The notes beneath the pieces were generated by a model. The model was not told where the DNA came from. It made no database searches and saw only the letters and a program-made list of their open reading frames with translations. A program made the translations under genes and the position numbers. From NCBI GenBank assembly GCA_902622575.1, contig CACNQJ010000002.1:62001-126000 (forward strand): DNA of 64,000 nucleotides, given 5' to 3'. Source of the stretch: an uncultured Bacteroidota bacterium (lineage in GTDB: Bacteria; Bacteroidota; Bacteroidia; Flavobacteriales; Flavobacteriaceae). Of this stretch, positions 22,854-32,987 are shown in pieces (positions within the stretch are counted from its first letter, which is position 1; every line of letters begins with the position of its first letter).

Positions 22854-24248
22854 TCAATCTGCCCTCATGGGTTCTTTATATACTTTACCATCTTTAATAA
22901 CCGCATAAATGTCGAGTGTGTTTTTTATGTTGTTAAGAGGATTTTTGTTTAATAAAATTAAATCGGCTATGTAACCTTCTTTTATTAAGCCTAGATCATT
23001 TTCCATTTTAAAGTAACGGGAAGGATTAATGGTTGCCGACTTTAAAGCATCCAATTCACTCATTCCACTTTCGACTAATAATTCCAATTCTGTGTGTAGA
23101 CTAAATCCCGGAATCAAAAACCCTAGGGGTGTATCTGTTCCTGCCATAAACTTAATTCCATAATCATACATTTCACCAGTCGTTTTTTGAATCCAGTCTG
23201 AAAAATCTTTTTGTTTAGGATCAATCTTATCATTTGAAAAATCTATTCTTTTCTTCCAAGTTTCTCTAGTTTTTTTTGGTAAGTATTTTAAATTTTCAAT
23301 CCAATACTCACTTTTAAATATTTTATATATGGGAACTTTATAAATTGAAATAGTTGGTATTTGCCATGTACTATTTTTATATAAAGCATTATATATTTTT
23401 ATAGTTTCATTTTCATCTAAATTATTTATTGCATAATTTTTTTGAGTGCTGTGAATCATCCCTCTTAAACTAAGGCCACTCAAATCTCGTGTATTTTTCA
23501 TCATTCCTCGCCTTTCTTTTAAAAGTTCATTTTTATCTTTAGTAGCCCATAACTCCAAATTTTTTATATGCTCTAAACTATTTAAACCAAGATTTGAAGC
23601 TGTTTCTATATCCATACTTAGTGGAATATGTCCCGTTACATTTATTTTTTTCTTTTTCGCAATTTTCATTATTATTTCAAACTGCTCGGGTGATAACATT
23701 TCGTAGGCTTTTAAGAAATCAGCTCCACTAGCAATTAGTTTATTGACAACACTTTCAGTTTCTTTAACATTTTCTGTCTTAACTGAAAGATTTGGAAGCC
23801 TTTCTCCATTATACACGTTAAATTTTCCATCAATTAAGGGGCCTGATATTTTTAAACGAGGATAGCTTTTTGGATATTTTTCAGAAAGTTTTTTTATACT
23901 ATCTAAAAAATTAAAATCTCCACCAGTATCCCTTATACTGGTAATACCAAATTTCAAAAATAGCATAGGCATATCTTTTGCCAACTCTTGATCGAAATAA
24001 AGGTGAACGTGACTATCCCATAATCCTGGAATTAAGTATTTACCACTTCCATCAATTTTTTTTGAATAAAAAATTGAAGTTTTTTTACCTACTTTTGAAA
24101 TTTTATTATTTGAAATTTCAACATTAGTATTCTTGGAAATTCCATCTAACGGATCGATTACATTAACATTATGAATCAAAATTTTTTCATCAGAAATATT
24201 GCATGAAAAAAAAATAAAAAAAACAAATAGAAAAGTTCTTTTAATCAT
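22854..24248 (-). CDS. Exported amidohydrolase lipoprotein (imidazolonepropionase/prolidase-like)
   Basis: 464 residues from ATG 24248, chosen because it gives a lipoprotein signal (MIKRTFLFVFFIFFSC, Cys 16); an upstream ATG at 24272 would spoil it. Amidohydrolase barrel: HxH in GLWDSHVHLY, a likely carboxylated Lys in DFLKAYEML, His in TGHIPLS and SLEHIKN, and metal Asp in MAGTDTP. The fold hydrolyses C-N bonds in acylated amino acids, dipeptides or cyclic amides. It overlaps the end of the upstream SMP-30 gene by eight bases, so both are one transcript and both proteins are predicted to be lipid-anchored outside the cytoplasm. Confidence 0.87.
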   Translation of the reverse strand: MIKRTFLFVFFIFFSCNISDEKILIHNVNVIDPLDGISKNTNVEISNNKISKVGKKTSIFYSKKIDGSGKYLIPGLWDSHVHLYFDQELAKDMPMLFLKFGITSIRDTGGDFNFLDSIKKLSEKYPKSYPRLKISGPLIDGKFNVYNGERLPNLSVKTENVKETESVVNKLIASGADFLKAYEMLSPEQFEIIMKIAKKKKINVTGHIPLSMDIETASNLGLNSLEHIKNLELWATKDKNELLKERRGMMKNTRDLSGLSLRGMIHSTQKNYAINNLDENETIKIYNALYKNSTWQIPTISIYKVPIYKIFKSEYWIENLKYLPKKTRETWKKRIDFSNDKIDPKQKDFSDWIQKTTGEMYDYGIKFMAGTDTPLGFLIPGFSLHTELELLVESGMSELDALKSATINPSRYFKMENDLGLIKEGYIADLILLNKNPLNNIKNTLDIYAVIKDGKVYKEPMRAD

Positions 24249-25200
24249 ATGTTGATGAAGATGATGTTGCACTAGTTACAATATAATTTAGAGAACCCAA
24301 GAGTGATTGATTAAATGTTCTACCAGCATTTTCAACTCTAAAGTTTTCAATATAACTTCTGTCTTGTAATGTTACATATATAGTTTTCCCATCTTTTCCA
24401 CCAAATGCAAGGTTTGAAGGTTTTTTTCCTTTTAATTTTATTTCTCTCAAAAGCTCTCCGTCACTTGATAATTTTACAATAGTTCCTTTGCCATATCTTG
24501 TTACATATAAATTTCCCTGATTATCACATCTCATTCCATCTAATCCGTAATCTTCAAATGAGTAAAATAATTTTTTATTTGAAATATTACCATCAGAATC
24601 AAGGTCATAAACCCATATGTTTTTTTGAACACTTTCATTAACATATAATTTAGTTTCATCCGGGCTAACTTCAATTCCATTTGTTGTACCCATATCCTCT
24701 TCTAAATAGGTAATTTCACCATCTTTTATCTTTAATAGATTACCGCTATTAGTTTTCCAACTTGGATCTGAGGCAAATAATAAATTATCACAGCATATTG
24801 CTAAATCATTAGGTTGATTGATAGTTGAATCATTAGCATAAACGCTAGCAATTTTTTCATCCTTTTCAATAATCAAAACATTATGACCAGTGTAGTCTGC
24901 AAGAAACATCTCTTGATTATTTCCAAACCTAATCCCATTTGCTACACTGTTATTTGGAAGTTGGTCTATAAAAACTGTAAAGTTTCCATTTGTATCAACT
25001 TTACCGATTGAACCATTTTTATATGGATTTACAAAATAAAGGTTTCCATATTTATCGACAGCAGGACCCTCTAATCCTCTTGTGAATTCTCCGACATATG
25101 CATAGTCATTAGCTTCATAAAGAACCTCATTATTTTTACATGAAAAATTAACTATTAAAATAGTCATTAACACTAAGTACATGCCCTGGTAATTCTTCAT
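24241..25200 (-). CDS. SMP-30/gluconolactonase-like six-bladed propeller lipoprotein
   Basis: 319 residues with lipoprotein signal (C21 in VNFSCKNN). The remainder is a six-bladed propeller: FTRGLEGPAVDKYGNLYFVN carries the metal-binding Glu, NQPNDLAICCDN the Asn/Asp, and SPDETKLYVNES the catalytic Asp position of SMP-30/gluconolactonase/LRE proteins. These enzymes open aldonolactones using a divalent metal. It is divergent from the sugar dehydrogenase gene 34 bases away, which would make exactly such lactones. A non-enzymatic NHL role cannot be excluded. Confidence 0.8.
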   Translation of the reverse strand: MKNYQGMYLVLMTILIVNFSCKNNEVLYEANDYAYVGEFTRGLEGPAVDKYGNLYFVNPYKNGSIGKVDTNGNFTVFIDQLPNNSVANGIRFGNNQEMFLADYTGHNVLIIEKDEKIASVYANDSTINQPNDLAICCDNLLFASDPSWKTNSGNLLKIKDGEITYLEEDMGTTNGIEVSPDETKLYVNESVQKNIWVYDLDSDGNISNKKLFYSFEDYGLDGMRCDNQGNLYVTRYGKGTIVKLSSDGELLREIKLKGKKPSNLAFGGKDGKTIYVTLQDRSYIENFRVENAGRTFNQSLLGSLNYIVTSATSSSSTYD

Positions 25201-25234
25201 TTTTTCGTAATTTAAATAAATAATTTTTATTTCT

Positions 25235-26746
25235 GTGTTTATTAAATTTAAGAAATTACAATCCTATTTAACAATTTCATTGTTAATATCCATTTTATTT
25301 TTTTCATCATGTAATCAAACTAGTAAGACAACAGAACTCAATCTTCCTGAAGGATTTATTTCTACTGTATTTGTTGACAGTATAGCAGAAACGGTAAGAC
25401 ATATGGACGTTAAAAATAATGGAGACTTATATGTTAAGTTTAGAAGACAAAGTGATGATGGAGTCTTAGCGGCAATAAGAGATATCAATAAAGATGGTAA
25501 AGCTGATTCAATTGTAAAGTTTGGTAAATATCACATTCCACAAAGAGGCTCATATTCAACCTCAGCTAGAATTTATAACGGATATTTGTATTACAGTTCT
25601 CAGCTAACTATCTACCGTGTTAAGCTAGATCATAATCATCTAGTTCCTAAATCGAGTCCCGAAATTATTGTTATTGATGATCACGAACATGGTTCACATG
25701 AACATATTGGAAAACCTTTAGCTTTTGATGATGAAGGGTATATATATGTCCCTTTTGGTGCACCAAATAATGCTTGTCAAGATCCTAAAAGAACTCCTCT
25801 TGCACCCGGAAGAGATCCTTGTCCAGACCTGGATTTACATGGTGGTATATGGAGATTCAAAGCCGACAAAATAAATCAAACACAAAAAGACGGTGAATTA
25901 TTTGCAACAGGTTTAAGAAGCATAGTAGCAATGAATTGGAATCCTTCTGATAAAACTCTTTATGCAGTTGGACATGGTAGAGATGATCTAGCGAGATTGT
26001 GGCCAAATCAATACAGCAAATGGGAAAGTGCACTTTTACCTTCCGAAGAATTTATAAAAATTGAGAAGGGTGATAATTTTGGTTGGCCTTATTGCTACTA
26101 TGATCAAATGCAAAACAAAAAACTATTGAACCCTGAATATGGTGGTGATGGAGAAATCATTGGAAGGTGTGATCAATTCAAGGATCCAATAATTGGATTT
26201 CCGGGTCATTGGGCACCAAATGATTTAGTTTTCTACAATGGTGATGCATTTCCTGAAAGATATAGAAATGGAGCATTTGTTGCTTTTCATGGTTCAACCA
26301 ATAGGGCTCCATATCCACAATCTGGATATTTCGTAGGTTTTGTTCCTTTCAAGAATGGAAAGCCAAGTGGAGATTATGAAATTTTTGCAGATGGTTTTGC
26401 TCAAGTTGATCCAATTGTAAATGTTCGAAATGCAAAATACAGACCTATGGGAATAGCATTTTCCGATGATGGATCAATGTATATTGCAGATAGTAGAAAA
26501 GGAAAAATATGGAGAATTGAATTTCAAGGTAAAAGAGAAAATTTTGGGAAAAAACAATTAAACAGAATGGAGAAAAGAAAACAACTTAGTCATTTTGCGA
26601 CACCTGATATTGAAAATGACATCATAGATATGGATGAGAAAAAAATTGAAGTTAAAAAATACTTTAATCCGCTTATTGTTCAATTCAATAATTTTAGTCT
26701 TTTCCATATATTTTACAACCAATACAAAAGTAAAAGAGATGAATAA
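25235..26746 (+). CDS. PQQ-type sugar (sorbosone/glucose) dehydrogenase lipoprotein
   Basis: 503 residues with lipoprotein signal (C26 in ILFFSSCNQ). A soluble GDH/sorbosone dehydrogenase-type propeller covers about 40-435: LPEGFISTVFV start, FATGLRSIVAMNWNPSD, VGHGRDDL, KIEKGDNFGWPYCYYD, YIADSRKGKIWRIE. Such enzymes oxidise aldoses at C1 to lactones and pass electrons out of PQQ. Many relatives end in a cytochrome c domain; here the last 60 residues carry no CxxCH and look degraded, so an external electron acceptor is needed. The final bases overlap the next gene by eight. Substrate unknown. Confidence 0.8.
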   Translation: MFIKFKKLQSYLTISLLISILFFSSCNQTSKTTELNLPEGFISTVFVDSIAETVRHMDVKNNGDLYVKFRRQSDDGVLAAIRDINKDGKADSIVKFGKYHIPQRGSYSTSARIYNGYLYYSSQLTIYRVKLDHNHLVPKSSPEIIVIDDHEHGSHEHIGKPLAFDDEGYIYVPFGAPNNACQDPKRTPLAPGRDPCPDLDLHGGIWRFKADKINQTQKDGELFATGLRSIVAMNWNPSDKTLYAVGHGRDDLARLWPNQYSKWESALLPSEEFIKIEKGDNFGWPYCYYDQMQNKKLLNPEYGGDGEIIGRCDQFKDPIIGFPGHWAPNDLVFYNGDAFPERYRNGAFVAFHGSTNRAPYPQSGYFVGFVPFKNGKPSGDYEIFADGFAQVDPIVNVRNAKYRPMGIAFSDDGSMYIADSRKGKIWRIEFQGKRENFGKKQLNRMEKRKQLSHFATPDIENDIIDMDEKKIEVKKYFNPLIVQFNNFSLFHIFYNQYKSKRDE

Positions 26747-27983
26747 AAAAAGTAATCTTAAATATTCTATTATCCTGCTTCTGTTTTGTTTATCAATTTC
26801 ATCTCAAGATTATGATATACTTATTCAAAATGGTCATGTCATCGATATAAAAAATAAAATTGATGATGTCTATGATATTGCTATTTCAAAAAATAAAGTT
26901 GTAGCAGTAAGTAAAAAAATAGATTTAAAAGATGCTAAAAGAGTTATTGATGCTTCCGGTCTTATAGTTGTGCCAGGATTAATTGATATCCACAGTCACA
27001 ACTTTCATGGTACTATACCAAATAGGTATTTAAGCAATAGTTTTTCTGCACTCCCTCCTGATGGTTTTTCTTTTAGGTCAGGAATAACAACTATTGTTGA
27101 TGTTGGTGGAGCTGGCTGGAGAAATTTTGAGGTTTTTAAAAATCAGGTAATCGATAGGTCACAAACAAGAGTATTATCCTTTTTGAATATTGTTGGTTTT
27201 GGTATGCAGGGTGGAGCAGTTGAGCAGAATATTGATGACATGAATTCAGAAATGACAGCTGAGATTGTAAAAAAATATCCTGATGAAATCGTCGGTATTA
27301 AATTAGCTCATTTCAACGGATATAACTGGCTTCCTGTTGATAGAGTTGTTAAAGCGGGAGAAATCTCAGATGTACCCGTTATGATTGATTTTGGCGGGAG
27401 TAAGCCCTTAATGCCTTTAGACAGCTTGCTTCTTAATAAATTGAGACCAGGCGATATTTTTACTCACACATATGCTAATGTTTTAGGAAGAATGTCAATA
27501 GTTGATGCAAATAATAAGCTTTTTCCTTTTGTAAAAAAAGCACAAGAAAGAGGGATAATTTTCGATGTTGGTCATGGCGGTGGAAGTTTTGCTTTTTCTC
27601 AAGCAATTCCAGCTATAATTCAAGGATTAAAACCAAATACTATTAGTACGGATCTTCATACAGGAAGTATGAATAGAGGAATGAAGGATTTACTAAATGT
27701 TATGTCTAAGTTTTTAAATATAGGTTTAAATTTAAAAGAGGTTGTAACAGCAACAACTTGGGATGCAGCTAAGGTGATTAAAAGAAATGATTTAGGAAAT
27801 TTAAGTGTGGGTTCAGTGGCAGACATTGCAATTTTAAATTTAAGAAAAGGTCAATTTGGCTTTGTAGATACAAAAGACAAAAAAATAAAAGGTGATAAAA
27901 AACTAGAGTGTGAGCTTACAATTAAAGATGGTCAAATTGTTTATGATCTTAATGGTATCTCTAATAAATTATGGAACGAATAA
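26739..27983 (+). CDS. Exported amidohydrolase/deacetylase, EF_0837-like family
   Basis: 414 residues from ATG 26739 with a signal peptide (about 1-22, ending ISSQ). Metal-site residues are complete: H85-x-H87 (DIHSHNFHG), probable carboxylated K188 (GIKLAHF), H243 (FTHTYAN), H279 (DVGHGGGSF) and D305 with H307 (STDLHTG). This motif set is that of the metallohydrolase family often encoded beside DgaE-type PLP ammonia-lyases; a DgaE-like gene is indeed three genes downstream. Likely role: removal of an N-acyl group from an amino sugar acid or amino acid in the periplasm. It overlaps the dehydrogenase gene by eight bases. Confidence 0.85.
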   Translation: MNKKSNLKYSIILLLFCLSISSQDYDILIQNGHVIDIKNKIDDVYDIAISKNKVVAVSKKIDLKDAKRVIDASGLIVVPGLIDIHSHNFHGTIPNRYLSNSFSALPPDGFSFRSGITTIVDVGGAGWRNFEVFKNQVIDRSQTRVLSFLNIVGFGMQGGAVEQNIDDMNSEMTAEIVKKYPDEIVGIKLAHFNGYNWLPVDRVVKAGEISDVPVMIDFGGSKPLMPLDSLLLNKLRPGDIFTHTYANVLGRMSIVDANNKLFPFVKKAQERGIIFDVGHGGGSFAFSQAIPAIIQGLKPNTISTDLHTGSMNRGMKDLLNVMSKFLNIGLNLKEVVTATTWDAAKVIKRNDLGNLSVGSVADIAILNLRKGQFGFVDTKDKKIKGDKKLECELTIKDGQIVYDLNGISNKLWNE

Positions 27984-27985
27984 TT

Positions 27986-29065
27986 ATGAAAATTTTAAAC
28001 AAAATCTTTTTCTCAATTTCAATTATTTCACTTGCTGTTACATTATTCATATTTTTTTCAGGTAATCTTGAAGAAACAGGGCCCAGTACAATATTCTTTT
28101 TACTTTTTTTGGCATTAGGAATCAATGGAACAAAAAAATTTAAAGGATTTACATTTACCGTTTTGATATTTGCAGCTGTTGCTATGTCAATGTATTATCC
28201 TGAGTACTTTATTGAAAATAATGGTTTTCAATTCAAAACATTAATTGTCCCATTGCTACAAATTATAATGTTTGGAATGGGTACAGCTATGAGTTTCAAA
28301 GATTTTTACGGCGTTATTAAAATGCCCAAAGGTGTTTTGATTGGTTTAGTGTGTCAGTTTACAATTATGCCAATACTAGGATTCTCATTAGCATCATTAT
28401 TTAATTTTCCATTGGAAATTGCAGCAGGCATAATTTTAATAGGATCATCACCAAGTGGTTTGGCTTCTAATGTAATGGCATATCTTGCAAAAGCCAATAT
28501 TGCTCTTTCAGTTACACTTACTGCGGTTGCAACATTATTGGCACCAATTATGACTCCATTTTTAATGAAAACCTTGGCAGGTTCATTTGTGCCAATCGAT
28601 TTTATTGCCATGATGACTAGCATATTTAAAATTGTAATTGTTCCAGTTTTGTTAGGTTTGATTTTCAATTATTTTTTCCATGGAAAAGCAAAATGGTTGG
28701 ATAAGTCAATGCCCATAATTTCTATGGCTGGGATCGGATTTATAATTATGATTATTACTGCTGCAGGTCGTGATGATTTACTGTCAATTGGGTTACTATT
28801 GATTCTTGCAGCAATAATTCATAACTTAATGGGATATGTATTTGGTTACTGGGGTTGTAGATTGTTTGGAATGAGTGAGCAAGATTGTAGAACAATAGCT
28901 TTTGAAGTGGGAATGCAAAATGGTGGATTAGCTACTGGCATAGCTTTGGAGATGGGTAAAATATCAACAGTAGGACTTGCTCCAGCAATATTTGGACCTT
29001 GGATGAATATTTCTGGATCTTCACTTGCGACATGGTGGAGAGATAAAGAACCAAAAAATAAATAA
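27986..29065 (+). CDS. Bile acid:sodium symporter (BASS/SBF) family transporter
   Basis: 359 residues from ATG 27986, two bases after the upstream stop (an ATG at 27971 inside the preceding gene would add five residues). About ten transmembrane helices with the SBF crossover signature GSSPSGLASNVMAYLAKAN and EVGMQNGGLATGIAL. Family members import organic anions with sodium: bile acids, pantoate, pyruvate or keto acids. The only transporter of this operon, so it probably carries the end product or the substrate across the inner membrane. Confidence 0.9.
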   Translation: MKILNKIFFSISIISLAVTLFIFFSGNLEETGPSTIFFLLFLALGINGTKKFKGFTFTVLIFAAVAMSMYYPEYFIENNGFQFKTLIVPLLQIIMFGMGTAMSFKDFYGVIKMPKGVLIGLVCQFTIMPILGFSLASLFNFPLEIAAGIILIGSSPSGLASNVMAYLAKANIALSVTLTAVATLLAPIMTPFLMKTLAGSFVPIDFIAMMTSIFKIVIVPVLLGLIFNYFFHGKAKWLDKSMPIISMAGIGFIIMIITAAGRDDLLSIGLLLILAAIIHNLMGYVFGYWGCRLFGMSEQDCRTIAFEVGMQNGGLATGIALEMGKISTVGLAPAIFGPWMNISGSSLATWWRDKEPKNK

Positions 29066-29066
29066 G

Positions 29067-29996
29067 ATGAAAAATTTAAAAATTAATACTCTATTAAACT
29101 TAATATTTTGTTTAACTCTTAGTTTTTCTTTTTCACAAGCTTTAAGTGTTGAGCAAATGAAATCTTTAACAAGTAATTGGGAAGGTGAAAGGTTTGATGA
29201 TGGAAGACCAAAAGTGTCCAAAAATATTCTTGAAAGAATGAAAAGTGTGACAATTGAGGAAGCTTGGGGCGTGATGAGAAATGAAGGCTATCACAATCAG
29301 TTTGAGGGAGGCTGGGAACCAATACATGATGATGTGCCATTTGTTGGAAGAGCACTTACTGTTCAGTATATGCCTAACAGACCAGATATTTCAGATCAAA
29401 TAAAAAATGAAGGCTTAAAAAATGGCGAAATTGGTAATACAAACTCTTGGCCCATAGATCGATTGGTTGAACACGATGTTTATGTTGCTGATGGTTTTGG
29501 AAAAATTGTTGATGGAACATTGATTGGTGACAATCTAGGTAATTCTATTTATGCAAAATCAAAAACAGGAGTCGTTTTTAATGCATCGAGTAGAGATTTA
29601 GAAGGTCTTTCTGAGATTGATGGATTCAATGCTTTTGTAAGAGGCTGGCATCCTTCATTTTTAACAGAAGTTATGCTACTTAGTATCAACTATCCCATAA
29701 GAATTGGAGCCGCTACTGTTATGCCTGGGGATGTAGTTTTAGCAAAAAAAGAGGGAGTAATATTTATTCCAGCACATCTTGCAGAACAGGTTGTAATAAC
29801 TTCGGAGGTCGTTAGATTAAGAGATCTATTTGGGATTACAAGATTAAAGGAAGGCGTGTACACACCAGGCCAAATAGATAATAAATGGTCTGATGAAATT
29901 GAAAAAGATTTTTCAAAATGGATTCGGGATAAGATTGATGAATTGCCTGTACCCAAAGAGCAAATAAAAGAATTGATTAAAAAAAGAATGTGGTAA
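29067..29996 (+). CDS. Exported RraA-family protein (HMG/CHA aldolase-like)
   Basis: 309 residues from ATG 29067 with a signal peptide (about 1-24, ending FSFSQ). The RraA fold follows from about residue 50: GRALTVQ, then GDNLG (154-158) and FNASSRDLEGL with R176-D177, the pair that binds substrate and metal in class II pyruvate aldolases such as 4-hydroxy-4-methyl-2-oxoglutarate aldolase. A GWHP segment and an extra C-terminal helix region (about 260-309) extend it beyond the usual 160-230 residues. RNase E inhibition is not plausible for an exported copy; cleavage of a hydroxy-keto acid is a better guess. Confidence 0.82.
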   Translation: MKNLKINTLLNLIFCLTLSFSFSQALSVEQMKSLTSNWEGERFDDGRPKVSKNILERMKSVTIEEAWGVMRNEGYHNQFEGGWEPIHDDVPFVGRALTVQYMPNRPDISDQIKNEGLKNGEIGNTNSWPIDRLVEHDVYVADGFGKIVDGTLIGDNLGNSIYAKSKTGVVFNASSRDLEGLSEIDGFNAFVRGWHPSFLTEVMLLSINYPIRIGAATVMPGDVVLAKKEGVIFIPAHLAEQVVITSEVVRLRDLFGITRLKEGVYTPGQIDNKWSDEIEKDFSKWIRDKIDELPVPKEQIKELIKKRMW

Positions 29997-30006
29997 AAAT
30001 TAAATT

Positions 30007-30468
30007 ATGGAAAAAATAAATAAAAGAAGATCAGCCTTAAAAAAATTAGGTATTGGATTGGCAGGTATTTTTGGACTCTCTAGTCTCAAATCTGCTGAAA
30101 ATCCAAAAAAGAAAATTGTAGGAGATATTGTTAAAAATCAACAACATCCACTTTTTTCTGGAGCGGTTAAACATGGAAATACACTCTATATCGCTGGAAA
30201 GGGGGCACACTTTGATGGTGATATTAAAGCACATACTGATCATGTTCTTAAGGAAATTCAAAAAGAACTTGAAAAGAATGGTTCTTCAATGGAAAAAGTA
30301 TTAAAAGTCAATGTTTATTTGGCTGATTTAGCTGACTATAAAGCTATGAATGAAGTTTACCGAGGTAGGTTTGGAGCTAATCCCCCTGTAAGAACAACAG
30401 TTGCAACGTATGGTGGAGTTCCAGGAAATTCATTGGTTGAAATTGACTGTATAGCAGCATTAGATTAA
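30007..30468 (+). CDS. Tat-exported RidA-family imine/enamine deaminase
   Basis: 153 residues. The N-terminus has a twin-arginine signal (R7-R8 in NKRRSALKKLGIG) and a hydrophobic run to about residue 30. The RidA domain (about 40-153) keeps R129 (PPVRTTV) and E145 (LVEIDCIA), the residues that bind the carboxylate and activate water. RidA proteins hydrolyse the enamine/imine intermediates released by PLP-dependent dehydratases and lyases. An exported copy directly ahead of an exported PLP enzyme suggests a matched pair working outside the cytoplasm. Confidence 0.87.
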   Translation: MEKINKRRSALKKLGIGLAGIFGLSSLKSAENPKKKIVGDIVKNQQHPLFSGAVKHGNTLYIAGKGAHFDGDIKAHTDHVLKEIQKELEKNGSSMEKVLKVNVYLADLADYKAMNEVYRGRFGANPPVRTTVATYGGVPGNSLVEIDCIAALD

Positions 30469-30478
30469 AATAAAAGTT

Positions 30479-31705
30479 ATGCCATCAAGAAGAAAAGCTC
30501 TCAAATCATTAGTGTCAGTTCCTTTTATCGGTGCTCTTTTGTCACCAGAAAAGTTAACAGCATCAACTAATGTTGTAAATAATTTAAATACCAATCTTAC
30601 AAGAGATTACTTTAAAGAGTTAGGTATAAGAACATTTATTAATGCTGCTGGAACGTATACTTCAATGACAGGTTCTCTAATGCCCAAGGAAGTAATTGAA
30701 GCAATTAATTATGGTGCACTACAGTATGTTAATTTGGATGAGTTACAGGACAAAGTTGGAGAGAGAATAGCAGACTTATTGGATTGTGAATATGCAACAG
30801 TATCATCTGGATGTTTTGGAGCCATGAGTATCGCAATGGCTGGAGTCATGTGTGGAAAAGATCAACAAAAAGTCAAACAATTACCTAACACAAAAGGAAT
30901 GAGAAATGAGGTAATTATGCAGGATAGCCACACCATAGGTTACGCACAAGCATTAACAAATGTTGGAGCAAAAGTTATTAAAGTTAAAACCGCTAGGGAG
31001 CTTGAAAAAGCGATTAATAGAAGGACAGCCATGTTATGGTTTTTAAATGCCAATACAGATCGAGGTGAAATTAAATGGAAAGAATTTGTAGCATTGGGTA
31101 AGAAACATAATATACCAACATTTATTGATTGTGCTGCAGACATTCCACCAGTTGAAAATTTGTTCAGATTTACAAAAATGGGTTTTGATATGGTTGCATT
31201 TTCTGGAGGAAAGGGATTGAGAGGACCACAAAGTGCAGGTTTATTACTCGGCAAGAGAGAATATATTGAAGCTGCAAGACTACACACACCTCCTCGAGGC
31301 GAAACAATTGGAAGAGGAATGAAGGTTAATAAGGAGGAAGTCCTTGGAATGCTTGCTGCCCTTGAACTTTATTTAAGCAGAGATCATGACGCTGAGTGGA
31401 AAGTGTGGGAAGATCAAATTAATTTGATTGCCAACGCAGCAAAGTCAGTCGGTGATGTAGAAACAAAAATTTCTGTACCAGCATATGCAAACTGTGTGCC
31501 TACACTCAGAATTAAATGGGATCAAAATAAACTTAAAATTTCACCTGATGAGTTAAGAAAGCAACTGAGAGATGGAGATCCCTCCATACAGACAGTAGGT
31601 GATAAAAACAGCGTCGGAATAACAACTTGGATGATGGTTCCAGGTCAAGAAACTATCGTTTCAAAAAAGATAAAATCCATATTAGAAAATTCTAAAAATT
31701 CGTAA
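30479..31705 (+). CDS. Tat-exported SelA/DgaE-like PLP-dependent ammonia-lyase
   Basis: 408 residues. Twin-arginine signal R4-R5 (SRRKALKSL) with hydrophobic segment to about residue 28. Then a fold-type I PLP enzyme of the SelA/DgaE group: IRTFINAAGTYTSMTGS, GCFGAMSIA, FIDCAAD (217-221) and SGGKGLRGPQ with the probable PLP lysine K245; GRGMKVNKEEVLGMLAALE near 285. DgaE removes ammonia from D-glucosaminate 6-phosphate; the exported copy would act on a non-phosphorylated hydroxy-amino acid. True selenocysteine synthase is excluded by size, export and context. Export of a PLP enzyme by Tat (folded with cofactor) makes sense. Confidence 0.85.
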   Translation: MPSRRKALKSLVSVPFIGALLSPEKLTASTNVVNNLNTNLTRDYFKELGIRTFINAAGTYTSMTGSLMPKEVIEAINYGALQYVNLDELQDKVGERIADLLDCEYATVSSGCFGAMSIAMAGVMCGKDQQKVKQLPNTKGMRNEVIMQDSHTIGYAQALTNVGAKVIKVKTARELEKAINRRTAMLWFLNANTDRGEIKWKEFVALGKKHNIPTFIDCAADIPPVENLFRFTKMGFDMVAFSGGKGLRGPQSAGLLLGKREYIEAARLHTPPRGETIGRGMKVNKEEVLGMLAALELYLSRDHDAEWKVWEDQINLIANAAKSVGDVETKISVPAYANCVPTLRIKWDQNKLKISPDELRKQLRDGDPSIQTVGDKNSVGITTWMMVPGQETIVSKKIKSILENSKNS

Positions 31706-31706
31706 A

Positions 31707-32255
31707 ATGAAAACAACTAAAATTATATACATATTCATTATTTCATTAATAATGACTGCATGTGAACCAGTAGCGACACCAACAGATACTAATTATGATC
31801 CTGAAGAAAAACTAAAAGAATTAGGAATTGAATTATCAACTCCATCAAGTCCAGTGGCTAATTATGTTAACAGTGTAAGATCTGGAAATTTATTATTCAT
31901 TTCAGGTAAGGGACCCCTTAAAAGTGATGGAAATTATATTAAAGGTAAATTAGGCTTTGATTTAACAATTGATCAAGGATATGAGGCTGCAAGAATTACA
32001 GCAATTAATTTGATTTCAACGGTTAAGGCATCTGTTGGTGACTTGAAAAAAGTAAAAAGAGTACTCAAAGTAACTGGAATGGTTAATGCAGCTCCAAATT
32101 TTACAGATCATCCTAAAGTTGTTAACGGCTGCTCAGATTTGATTGTCGAGGTCTTTGGAGAAAGAGGAAAACATACTCGTGCTGCAGTTGGAATGGGCTC
32201 ACTTCCTTCAAACATAGCTGTTGAAATTGATATGATTTTGGAAGTAATTGACTAG
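31707..32255 (+). CDS. RidA-family lipoprotein
   Basis: 182 residues with lipoprotein signal (C19 in LIMTACEP). The RidA-like domain (about 35-182) belongs to the larger sub-family with KLKELGIELSTPSSPVANY and FISGKGP at the start and an Arg in GKHTRAAVG and Glu in AVEIDMI at the expected active-site places. It is distinct in sequence from the Tat-exported RidA two genes upstream, so not a recent duplicate. It probably hydrolyses imines, or related carbamates, in the same pathway, anchored to the membrane. Confidence 0.83.
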   Translation: MKTTKIIYIFIISLIMTACEPVATPTDTNYDPEEKLKELGIELSTPSSPVANYVNSVRSGNLLFISGKGPLKSDGNYIKGKLGFDLTIDQGYEAARITAINLISTVKASVGDLKKVKRVLKVTGMVNAAPNFTDHPKVVNGCSDLIVEVFGERGKHTRAAVGMGSLPSNIAVEIDMILEVID

Positions 32256-32264
32256 TATTGTAGT

Positions 32265-32987
32265 GTGAAATATAAACTACTAATTAATTTTCTCGCCCTA
32301 ACATTAAGTTTATCATTATTTTCTCAAATATCTGCAGATAGACCGGACCAAACAGAAGGCACATATGTTCTGAAAAAAGGCAATGCCCAAATTGAAACAG
32401 GATGGACATTTGAAGAAAATGGATATTTAAATACACTATTAAGGTTTGGAGTGTTCAAAGGATTGGAATTGAGAGTCAACACTAATTTAATTAGTAGTGC
32501 TGGAGATATGATGGGTTTATTTCCTGAAATTGGGGATTTAGAGTTAGGAGCTAAATTTCGCCTACTTAACAATAATTCACGAACCAAAATATCATTTGCA
32601 TCAAATTTATCTCTACCTGTTGGGGATTTTGGTGAGGATGGTATTTTAAATAGTTTATTGGTGTCGCATGATTTATCAGATTCTTTTCAAGTAGCATATA
32701 ATATTGGTTATGATAAATATTTTGAAAATCAAGAAAGACGTGGAGACAATAGCGTATTTGTTTATTCCCTGGTGATGTCTAAAAGTTTTGGAAGATTAGG
32801 CGCTTTTATTGAATTTTTTGGAGAGGATGGTACAAAGGAATCTGACTCAAGTTGGGACCTCGGTTTAACTTATCTAATTAAAGATTATTTACAAGCTGAT
32901 ATTTCCTACGGCAATGGAATAAATAACGGATCAAGTTATTTATCCATTGGTGCCGCTTGGAATTTTAACCTAAAATCAAATAAATAA
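32265..32987 (+). CDS. Outer-membrane transporter-like beta-barrel (phenol-MetA family)
   Basis: 240 residues starting at GTG 32265, with a signal peptide (about 1-21). The mature N-terminus ISADRPDQTEG is the hallmark of the Phenol_MetA_deg/transporter family of small barrels, followed by repeating amphipathic strands and a final AAWNFNL strand. Such proteins are thought to be outer-membrane channels for small organics. It ends the exported-enzyme operon (nine-base gap), so it may be the entry pore for the substrate. Confidence 0.72.
   Translation: MKYKLLINFLALTLSLSLFSQISADRPDQTEGTYVLKKGNAQIETGWTFEENGYLNTLLRFGVFKGLELRVNTNLISSAGDMMGLFPEIGDLELGAKFRLLNNNSRTKISFASNLSLPVGDFGEDGILNSLLVSHDLSDSFQVAYNIGYDKYFENQERRGDNSVFVYSLVMSKSFGRLGAFIEFFGEDGTKESDSSWDLGLTYLIKDYLQADISYGNGINNGSSYLSIGAAWNFNLKSNK

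Follow-up and report, generated by a model that had tools for sequence, protein, structure and literature searches.

The window, a stretch of 64,000 nucleotides from contig CACNQJ010000002.1 of an uncultured Flavobacteriaceae bacterium (assembly GCA_902622575.1; host genome 1.27 Mb, 82% complete), carries a compact block of ten genes at 22854-32987. All ten open reading frames (ORFs) were verified as open, two on the minus strand and eight on the plus strand. Adjoining genes are separated by at most 34 bp or overlap, and within the plus-strand eight the gaps measure 1-10 bp or give way to an 8 bp overlap. An earlier reading, made from the letters alone (the sequence-only reading), had described ten consecutive genes of named families, and Pfam and NCBIfam model searches of the window proteins agree with those families. 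We conclude that the operon is probably dedicated to a carbohydrate acid, that an amino sugar is the best-supported source of this acid, and that N-acetylglucosamine (GlcNAc) is its likeliest, though unproven, substrate.

The plus-strand series opens with a pyrroloquinoline quinone (PQQ)-type sugar dehydrogenase with an AA12-like propeller and a lipoprotein signal (25235-26746; GSDH, 54.8 bits). It is followed by an EF_0837-group amidohydrolase with an N-terminal signal, the predicted N-deacetylase (26739-27983; NF006689, 433.3 bits against a cut-off of 371), and by a BASS/SBF-family carrier, the predicted importer of the acid product (27986-29065; SBF, 140 bits; PanS and bass models under their cut-offs). 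Next comes an RraA-like protein with a signal, a predicted class II pyruvate aldolase and an optional member (29067-29996; PF03737, 66 bits). The series continues with a RidA-family protein with a twin-arginine start (RidA1; 30007-30468; PF01042, 77 bits), a DgaE/SelA-like pyridoxal 5'-phosphate (PLP) enzyme, also with a twin-arginine start and predicted to be an ammonia-lyase for an unphosphorylated amino-sugar acid (30479-31705; TIGR01437, E 9.5e-58, under cut-off), and a second RidA-type protein with a lipoprotein signal (RidA2; 31707-32255; PF14588 and PF01042). On the minus strand lies an SMP-30/gluconolactonase-type lipoprotein, a predicted lactonase and part-time member (24241-25200; SGL, 137 bits). 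Two outermost genes fall outside the conserved set: a second amidohydrolase on the minus strand (22854-24272; Amidohydro_1, 80.6 bits; closest NCBIfam model Xaa-Pro dipeptidase, far under cut-off) and a plus-strand Phenol_MetA_deg-family protein, probably an outer-membrane barrel (32265-32987; PF13557, 59 bits).

Recurrence of the set was assessed across a species-genome collection, which was scanned with an alignment of ten relatives and yielded at least 594 stretches, 483 of which encode relatives; as the best 80 of these 483 were kept, the locus sample leans toward close relatives. Those 80, together with seven stretches from another search and minus four duplicates, make up 83 distinct related loci. 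Left out of the locus counts were L051, L052, L056 and L065, whose contigs were already represented, and L040, whose contig is thus uncounted. Residue counts additionally leave out L040, truncated and short ORFs and L050, and the gene-order comparison leaves out L040, L048, L050 and the four duplicates. Gene presence was scored as a tblastn match at E 1e-10, and a full-flank subset of 50 loci was defined by at least 7.5 kb before and at least 3.5 kb after the DgaE-like gene.

The sequence-only reading had proposed looking for the same gene set in other genomes, and the ordered set does recur: the EF_0837-group deacetylase accompanies the PLP enzyme in 74 of the 83 related loci and in 49 of the 50 full-flank loci. 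The corresponding figures are 72 and 42 for RidA1, 63 and 44 for the dehydrogenase, 57 and 42 for RidA2, 51 and 31 for RraA, 45 and 27 for BASS, and 18 and 9 for SMP-30. A tripartite ATP-independent periplasmic (TRAP) carrier is present in 10 and 9, and one or other carrier, BASS or TRAP, in 33/50 full-flank loci. A CBM9-type protein adjoins the dehydrogenase in 43/83 loci (35/50 full-flank; Pfam-confirmed in two members), and the window itself showed none. The genes typically run in the order CBM9, dehydrogenase, EF_0837, BASS, RraA, RidA1, DgaE, RidA2, then TRAP or an esterase. This order is nearly constant, with modules missing from some loci and one genome, G348 (L046), rearranged. The recurrence of the same genes in near-identical order across many loci indicates that the set is not a product of chance. 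The first amidohydrolase was matched in only three of the related loci (two full-flank), and the last gene had no match in the 83 related or the 50 full-flank loci; the conserved core therefore spans 25235-32255, and the earlier view of all ten genes as one set holds for these seven and not for the outermost two. Within the set, the dehydrogenase, deacetylase, RidA and PLP lyase are the constant core, joined optionally by the lactonase, RraA and BASS.

The DgaE-like protein is thinly spread. A class-wide search listed 30 of 247 sampled genomes; a full-length match came from the window genome alone, the other 29 matches being partial and low-scoring (23-33% identity, at most about 213 residues). 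Among 198 relatives the protein is present in nine (window genome counted), and among the 22 other genomes of the genus in three, all three incomplete. Named carriers are mainly marine-type Flavobacteriaceae; in the eight Arenibacter loci, CBM9, EF_0837, DgaE and RidA2 are kept throughout and the dehydrogenase in seven.

Active-site comparison sets the PLP enzyme apart from DgaE, a D-glucosaminate-6-phosphate ammonia-lyase (DGL). The window protein scores 160.7 bits on the TIGR01437 equivalog model against a cut-off of 600, and its PLP lysine, K245, aligns with the lysine of the DGL YSGAK motif and is present in 86/86 rows. In DGL, Arg-301, Arg-332 and Arg-346 are placed at the substrate phosphate (PMC9529869). 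None of the three is kept in the window, which has T342, V373 and W384, and no arginine occurs at these columns in 40 aligned DgaE-like rows; in a smaller alignment of ten rows, Arg stands at 342 in a single sequence, that of the second paralogue from Granulicella. His-163 of DGL falls on T193 or a gap (His in 0/40 rows), and His-162 on N192 (His in 3/40 rows). Retention of the lysine together with loss of the phosphate-site arginines and His-163 points to an unphosphorylated substrate, and the exported clade likely acts on the free acid. The rhizobial relative from Aminobacter retains both histidines, Arg-301 and Arg-332. We also considered whether loss of His-163 makes RidA a requirement; this idea is weakened by the same relative, which keeps both histidines yet has RidA adjoining.

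For the dehydrogenase, an AlphaFold2 (AF2) model of the propeller built from 26 sequences had a mean predicted local distance difference test (pLDDT) score of 79.6, with residues 469-503 under pLDDT 50. Its four best fold matches are all AA12 (Foldseek E 1.1e-18 to 1.5e-17, the next at 2.5e-13), with Z scores of 33.9, 33.8, 33.7 and 32.9, and 29.8 for the next, another sugar dehydrogenase. As modeled, the protein is an AA12-type six-bladed propeller, nearest in fold to the AA12 pyranose dehydrogenases, and Pfam TrAA12 scores 22 bits on it, under the 30.9 cut-off. Residues R228, H325 and H352, present in 60/60 rows, align with the PQQ-contact residues R220, H330 and H350 of TrAA12, whose published numbering was matched with an offset of 27 derived in the analysis; we further infer a pairing of R55 (60/60 rows) and H157 (59/60 rows) with TrAA12 R57 and H153. 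PQQ-dependent sugar oxidation is a prediction for the window enzyme. A CxxCH motif lies C-terminal to the propeller in 58 of 60 full-length rows, the exceptions being the window copy and L055, and the CxxCH domain of the relatives has its nearest counterpart in three-domain copper nitrite reductases. At 26600-26746 of the window, this haem domain is gone relative to L041, while the final residues are kept, as is the overlap with the gene that follows; the gap may reflect a real loss or an assembly error. At L055:4221-6193 the propeller and the CxxCH motif of the dehydrogenase lie on two separate ORFs.

The remaining enzymes likewise keep their putative catalytic residues. The amidohydrolase passes NF006689, scores 213 bits on TIGR03583 (EF_0837 proper), under its cut-off of 432, and matches D-aminoacylase 1rjp only at residues 23-99 (E 7.2e-5). 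Its residues H85, H87, K188, H243 and D305, which we take to form the metal site, are present in 73/73 rows and H279 in 71/73. R129 of RidA1 (72/72 rows) and R158 of RidA2 (57/57 rows) are invariant and are, we assume, the catalytic arginines. The RraA-like protein was aligned with 4-hydroxy-4-methyl-2-oxoglutarate/4-carboxy-4-hydroxy-2-oxoadipate (HMG/CHA) aldolase 3noj, an enzyme described as using an Arg-123/Asp-124 catalytic pair. A GDx20RD pattern is kept in 50/50 of its rows, and its scores stay below the equivalog cut-offs.

Export signals are conserved along with the active sites. With the window row counted in each case, the twin arginines R4 and R5 of the PLP enzyme occur in 86/86 rows, R7 and R8 of RidA1 in 71/72 and 72/72, the dehydrogenase lipobox C26 in 60/60, and the RidA2 lipobox C19 in 56/57. 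In both RidA1 and the PLP enzyme, the twin arginine is followed by a hydrophobic stretch. The first model-matched residue is 24 in the EF_0837-group protein and 45 in the DgaE-like protein (model position 2 in both), and 50 in RidA1 (position 16) and in the RraA-like protein (position 6); these late starts, at residues 24-50, indicate an N-terminal extension on all four. TatC, of the twin-arginine translocation (Tat) pathway, is encoded in 8/8 carrier genomes. An ad hoc signal rule proved too lenient for the general secretory (Sec) class, since 350 of 534 other ORFs received a signal call of one kind or another; the analysis therefore relied on the Tat class of this rule alone, together with the invariant residues. 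By the rule, 86 of 87 DgaE-like proteins are Tat-like, against 44 of the 534 other ORFs. Among library models, TIGR02811 matches 11/40 DgaE-like proteins at E up to 1. The sequence-only reading had given nearly every enzyme a signal peptide, lipobox or Tat motif; conserved signals bear this out, with weaker backing from the library TAT models, which match few members.

A version of the set outside Bacteroidota lies on the Granulicella plasmid pACIX902 (Acidobacteriota, L048), where RraA, DgaE, RidA, a second DgaE and an EF_0837-group gene are joined by a PF10282 lactonase and a BBE-type FAD protein. Identities to the window are 38% for DgaE, 33% for the second DgaE and 49% for the EF_0837-group protein, and both DgaE proteins, RidA and the lactonase have twin-arginine starts. 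The lactonase and FAD protein suggest that other families could take over the oxidation step and the opening of the lactone. Two relatives, L074 and L104, carry a PIG-L de-N-acetylase-family protein in their operons. Taken together, the Granulicella cluster and the PIG-L proteins make an acylated amino sugar a likelier substrate than an N-acyl amino acid. The two twin-arginine DgaE paralogues of Granulicella lie at L048:11872-15299, the second with an extra C-terminal stretch.

From these sequences we infer the substrate, the reactions, their order and their location, and we give about even chances to an oxidative pathway that would run outside the cytoplasm and act on an N-acetylated amino sugar, for which a 2-acetamido-2-deoxyhexose such as GlcNAc is the likeliest candidate. 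The AA12-like quinoprotein would oxidize C1 of the free sugar and pass electrons to a cytochrome; the resulting lactone would be opened by the SMP-30 lactonase, by another hydrolase or spontaneously; and the EF_0837-group amidohydrolase would then remove the acetyl group. The Tat-exported DgaE-like enzyme could next eliminate water across C2-C3 of the free 2-amino-aldonate, and the exported RidA proteins would hydrolyze the enamine or imine to a 2-keto-3-deoxyaldonate and ammonia. Where RraA is present, cleavage to pyruvate and an aldehyde would follow outside the cytoplasm; where it is absent, a carrier (BASS, TRAP or another) would bring in the intact keto acid. The exported oxidative amino-sugar pathway of the sequence-only reading is thus retained in outline, backed by the conserved ordered set, the export signals, the catalytic residues and the signs of carbohydrate chemistry (AA12-like fold, CBM9, the Granulicella lactonase and FAD protein, PIG-L), and trimmed of its outermost genes, with the lactonase, RraA and BASS now optional. 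Glycoside hydrolase genes of the carrier genomes also speak for it: GH18 is present in 7/8 and GH20 in 8/8, the latter weak in the window genus.

The closest functional precedent is the Ong pathway of Pseudoalteromonas prydzensis (OngB, OngC, OngD, KdgK), in which a cytoplasmic deacetylase, a PLP deaminase and KdgK act, and the deacetylase, PLP deaminase and RidA genes are each needed for growth on GlcNAc acid (PMC9537276). The same functional trio for breakdown of the GlcNAc aldonic acid is predicted in the window, which has two RidA-type genes. However, OngB is of D-aminoacylase type and OngC of D-amino-acid-deaminase type, whereas the window encodes an EF_0837-group deacetylase and a DgaE/SelA-type PLP enzyme; because these families differ, the window operon would work like Ong without being a member of it. 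The Ong enzymes are cytoplasmic, whereas the window proteins bear predicted export signals, and the window operon adds a dehydrogenase and has no kinase. The Dga D-glucosaminate pathway of Salmonella also applies a DgaE-type PLP lyase to a 2-amino-aldonate, followed by an aldolase (DgaF), but acts on the 6-phosphate after phosphotransferase-system uptake (PMC9529869). The window enzyme instead lacks the three phosphate-site arginines and His-163, bears a twin-arginine signal, and is paired with an RraA-like aldolase. The fungal CcPDH (AA8 cytochrome b, AA12 and CBM1; PMC6881789) resembles the relatives' set in joining an AA12-type PQQ propeller to a haem domain, with a carbohydrate-binding module; here the protein is a bacterial lipoprotein, the relatives' haem domain is of cytochrome c type, and CBM9 sits on a separate protein. 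Folded export of PLP enzymes by Tat has parallels in PvdN and PtaA of Pseudomonas, which serve siderophore tailoring (PMC6206403), in contrast to the catabolic role predicted here. No paper on this operon was found in searches limited to open-licence PMC literature. More tentatively than the pathway itself, and at somewhat below even odds, we propose that the whole route, from deacetylation through PLP deamination and imine hydrolysis to aldol cleavage, would run outside the cytoplasm, making pyruvate and ammonia there and passing electrons to respiration. It would comprise a Tat-exported catabolic PLP lyase with its own RidA partner, families other than those of Ong, and versions in both Bacteroidota and Acidobacteriota.

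Several observations weigh against the proposed pathway. The analysis found no close relative whose substrate has been measured, and the activities reported for AA12 enzymes concern L-fucose, D-arabinose and 2-keto-glucose rather than GlcNAc. RraA is absent from 19, SMP-30 from 41 and the dehydrogenase from six of the 50 full-flank loci. The window dehydrogenase is without the cytochrome c (haem) domain of its relatives, through a segment missing relative to same-genus L041. PqqE exceeds its cut-off in 0/8 carrier genomes, with weaker matches in three, so PQQ would need scavenging; E. coli is known to use PQQ supplied from outside. Glucosamine_iso-family genes occur in 7/8 carrier genomes, and a common GlcNAc route may thus coexist. 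On the side of export, the ad hoc rule gives Tat-like for only 35/72 RidA1 proteins, the other 37 being Sec-like. Library TAT models match few members: TIGR01409 matches 8/40 RidA1 proteins, and for the DgaE-like proteins it does not appear among the 25 listed families (of 53). The Granulicella BBE-type FAD protein is without an evident signal. In rhizobia, a trio without signals adjoins ATP-binding cassette (ABC) transporters, and another DgaE, again paired with RidA, has allantoicase and asparaginase genes in its vicinity; these contexts suggest amino-acid-like substrates and are the chief evidence against an acylated amino sugar.

If the pathway is as exported as proposed, its substrate could still be another N-acylated amino sugar or acid, such as N-acetylgalactosamine, a 6-deoxy sugar (N-acetylfucosamine, N-acetylquinovosamine) or an amino-uronic acid, rather than GlcNAc. 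The reported AA12 activities, on L-fucose-like and other uncommon sugars, fit such a substrate, as does the presence in 18 loci of a sulfatase cluster no more than 10 kb away, the single member tested having an SGSH_C domain. But no gene of the loci indicates one particular sugar, and GH18 genes occur in 7/8 carriers. We consider this reading unlikely, if the strongest of the alternatives. A little less probable is salvage of N-acyl-D-amino acids or beta-hydroxy-amino acids, in which the deacylase would free the amino acid, the PLP enzyme would dehydrate and deaminate it, RidA would clear the enamine, and the dehydrogenase would have a separate role. The rhizobial gene contexts lend it support, as do the related amidohydrolase OngB, described as a sister of D-aminoacylases, and the acylated D-amino-acid-like compounds on which EF_0837-group enzymes presumably act. 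However, the dehydrogenase is present in 44/50 full-flank loci, mostly in the same operon as the trio and beside the CBM9 protein, and the Granulicella cluster holds a lactonase and a BBE-type FAD protein.

The role of the dehydrogenase is also central to a further alternative, in which the acid would be made elsewhere, for example by lytic polysaccharide monooxygenase (LPMO) attack on chitin, the AA12-like protein would feed electrons to the LPMO or the respiratory chain, and the rest would be an exported counterpart of Ong. The Ong pathway itself begins with LPMO products, and the TrAA12 paper discusses electron supply to LPMOs (PMC9537276 for the former); SMP-30 is, moreover, missing from 41/50 full-flank loci. 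The dehydrogenase is nevertheless more constant in the set than the lactonase, aldolase or carrier, and we judge this alternative improbable. Least probable of all, and in our view very unlikely indeed, is that nothing is catabolized outside the cytoplasm, the twin-arginine starts being anchors or misread and the steps being cytoplasmic, like those of the Ong and Dga pathways. The few TAT-model matches and the lenient rule, with its signal calls in 350/534 other ORFs, would allow this. Against it stand the twin arginines in 86/86 DgaE-like and 71-72/72 RidA1 rows and the concentration of Tat-like calls in DgaE-like proteins (86/87 versus 44/534).

Several variants of the locus and its surroundings were also recorded. 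KDPG aldolase is encoded in 6/8 carrier genomes and was not found in the window genome (82% complete) or in G264 (69%). In six Arenibacter loci (L092, L095, L097, L100, L101 and L106), RidA2 is followed by a DUF5690 membrane protein (Pfam-tested in L097), and the downstream genes are SusC/SusD-like by eye, a possible alternative carrier. Four genes (about 830 aa, DUF1501, about 314 aa and about 468 aa) recur as a group beside the set in L045 and L106, from G300 and Arenibacter. G348 has two divergent versions of the set at L046:6038-18972, with two dehydrogenases, two DgaE-type genes, and two full EF_0837-type genes plus a fragment, possibly for two substrates. Two contigs of metagenome-assembled genomes carry a partial set up to the contig end: L091, labelled Gammaproteobacteria (69% identity), which may be misbinned, and L120, labelled Verrucomicrobia (57%).

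Amino sugars of chitin and cell walls are an important source of carbon and nitrogen in the sea. If the proposed pathway is correct, some marine bacteria would deaminate amino sugars prior to import, with acetate and ammonia set free on the outer side of the inner membrane, an unusual location for such chemistry. They would gain electrons directly and keep reactive enamine intermediates out of the cytoplasm. The pathway would also provide functions for families labelled only as amidohydrolase, RidA family, RraA family or class V aminotransferase.

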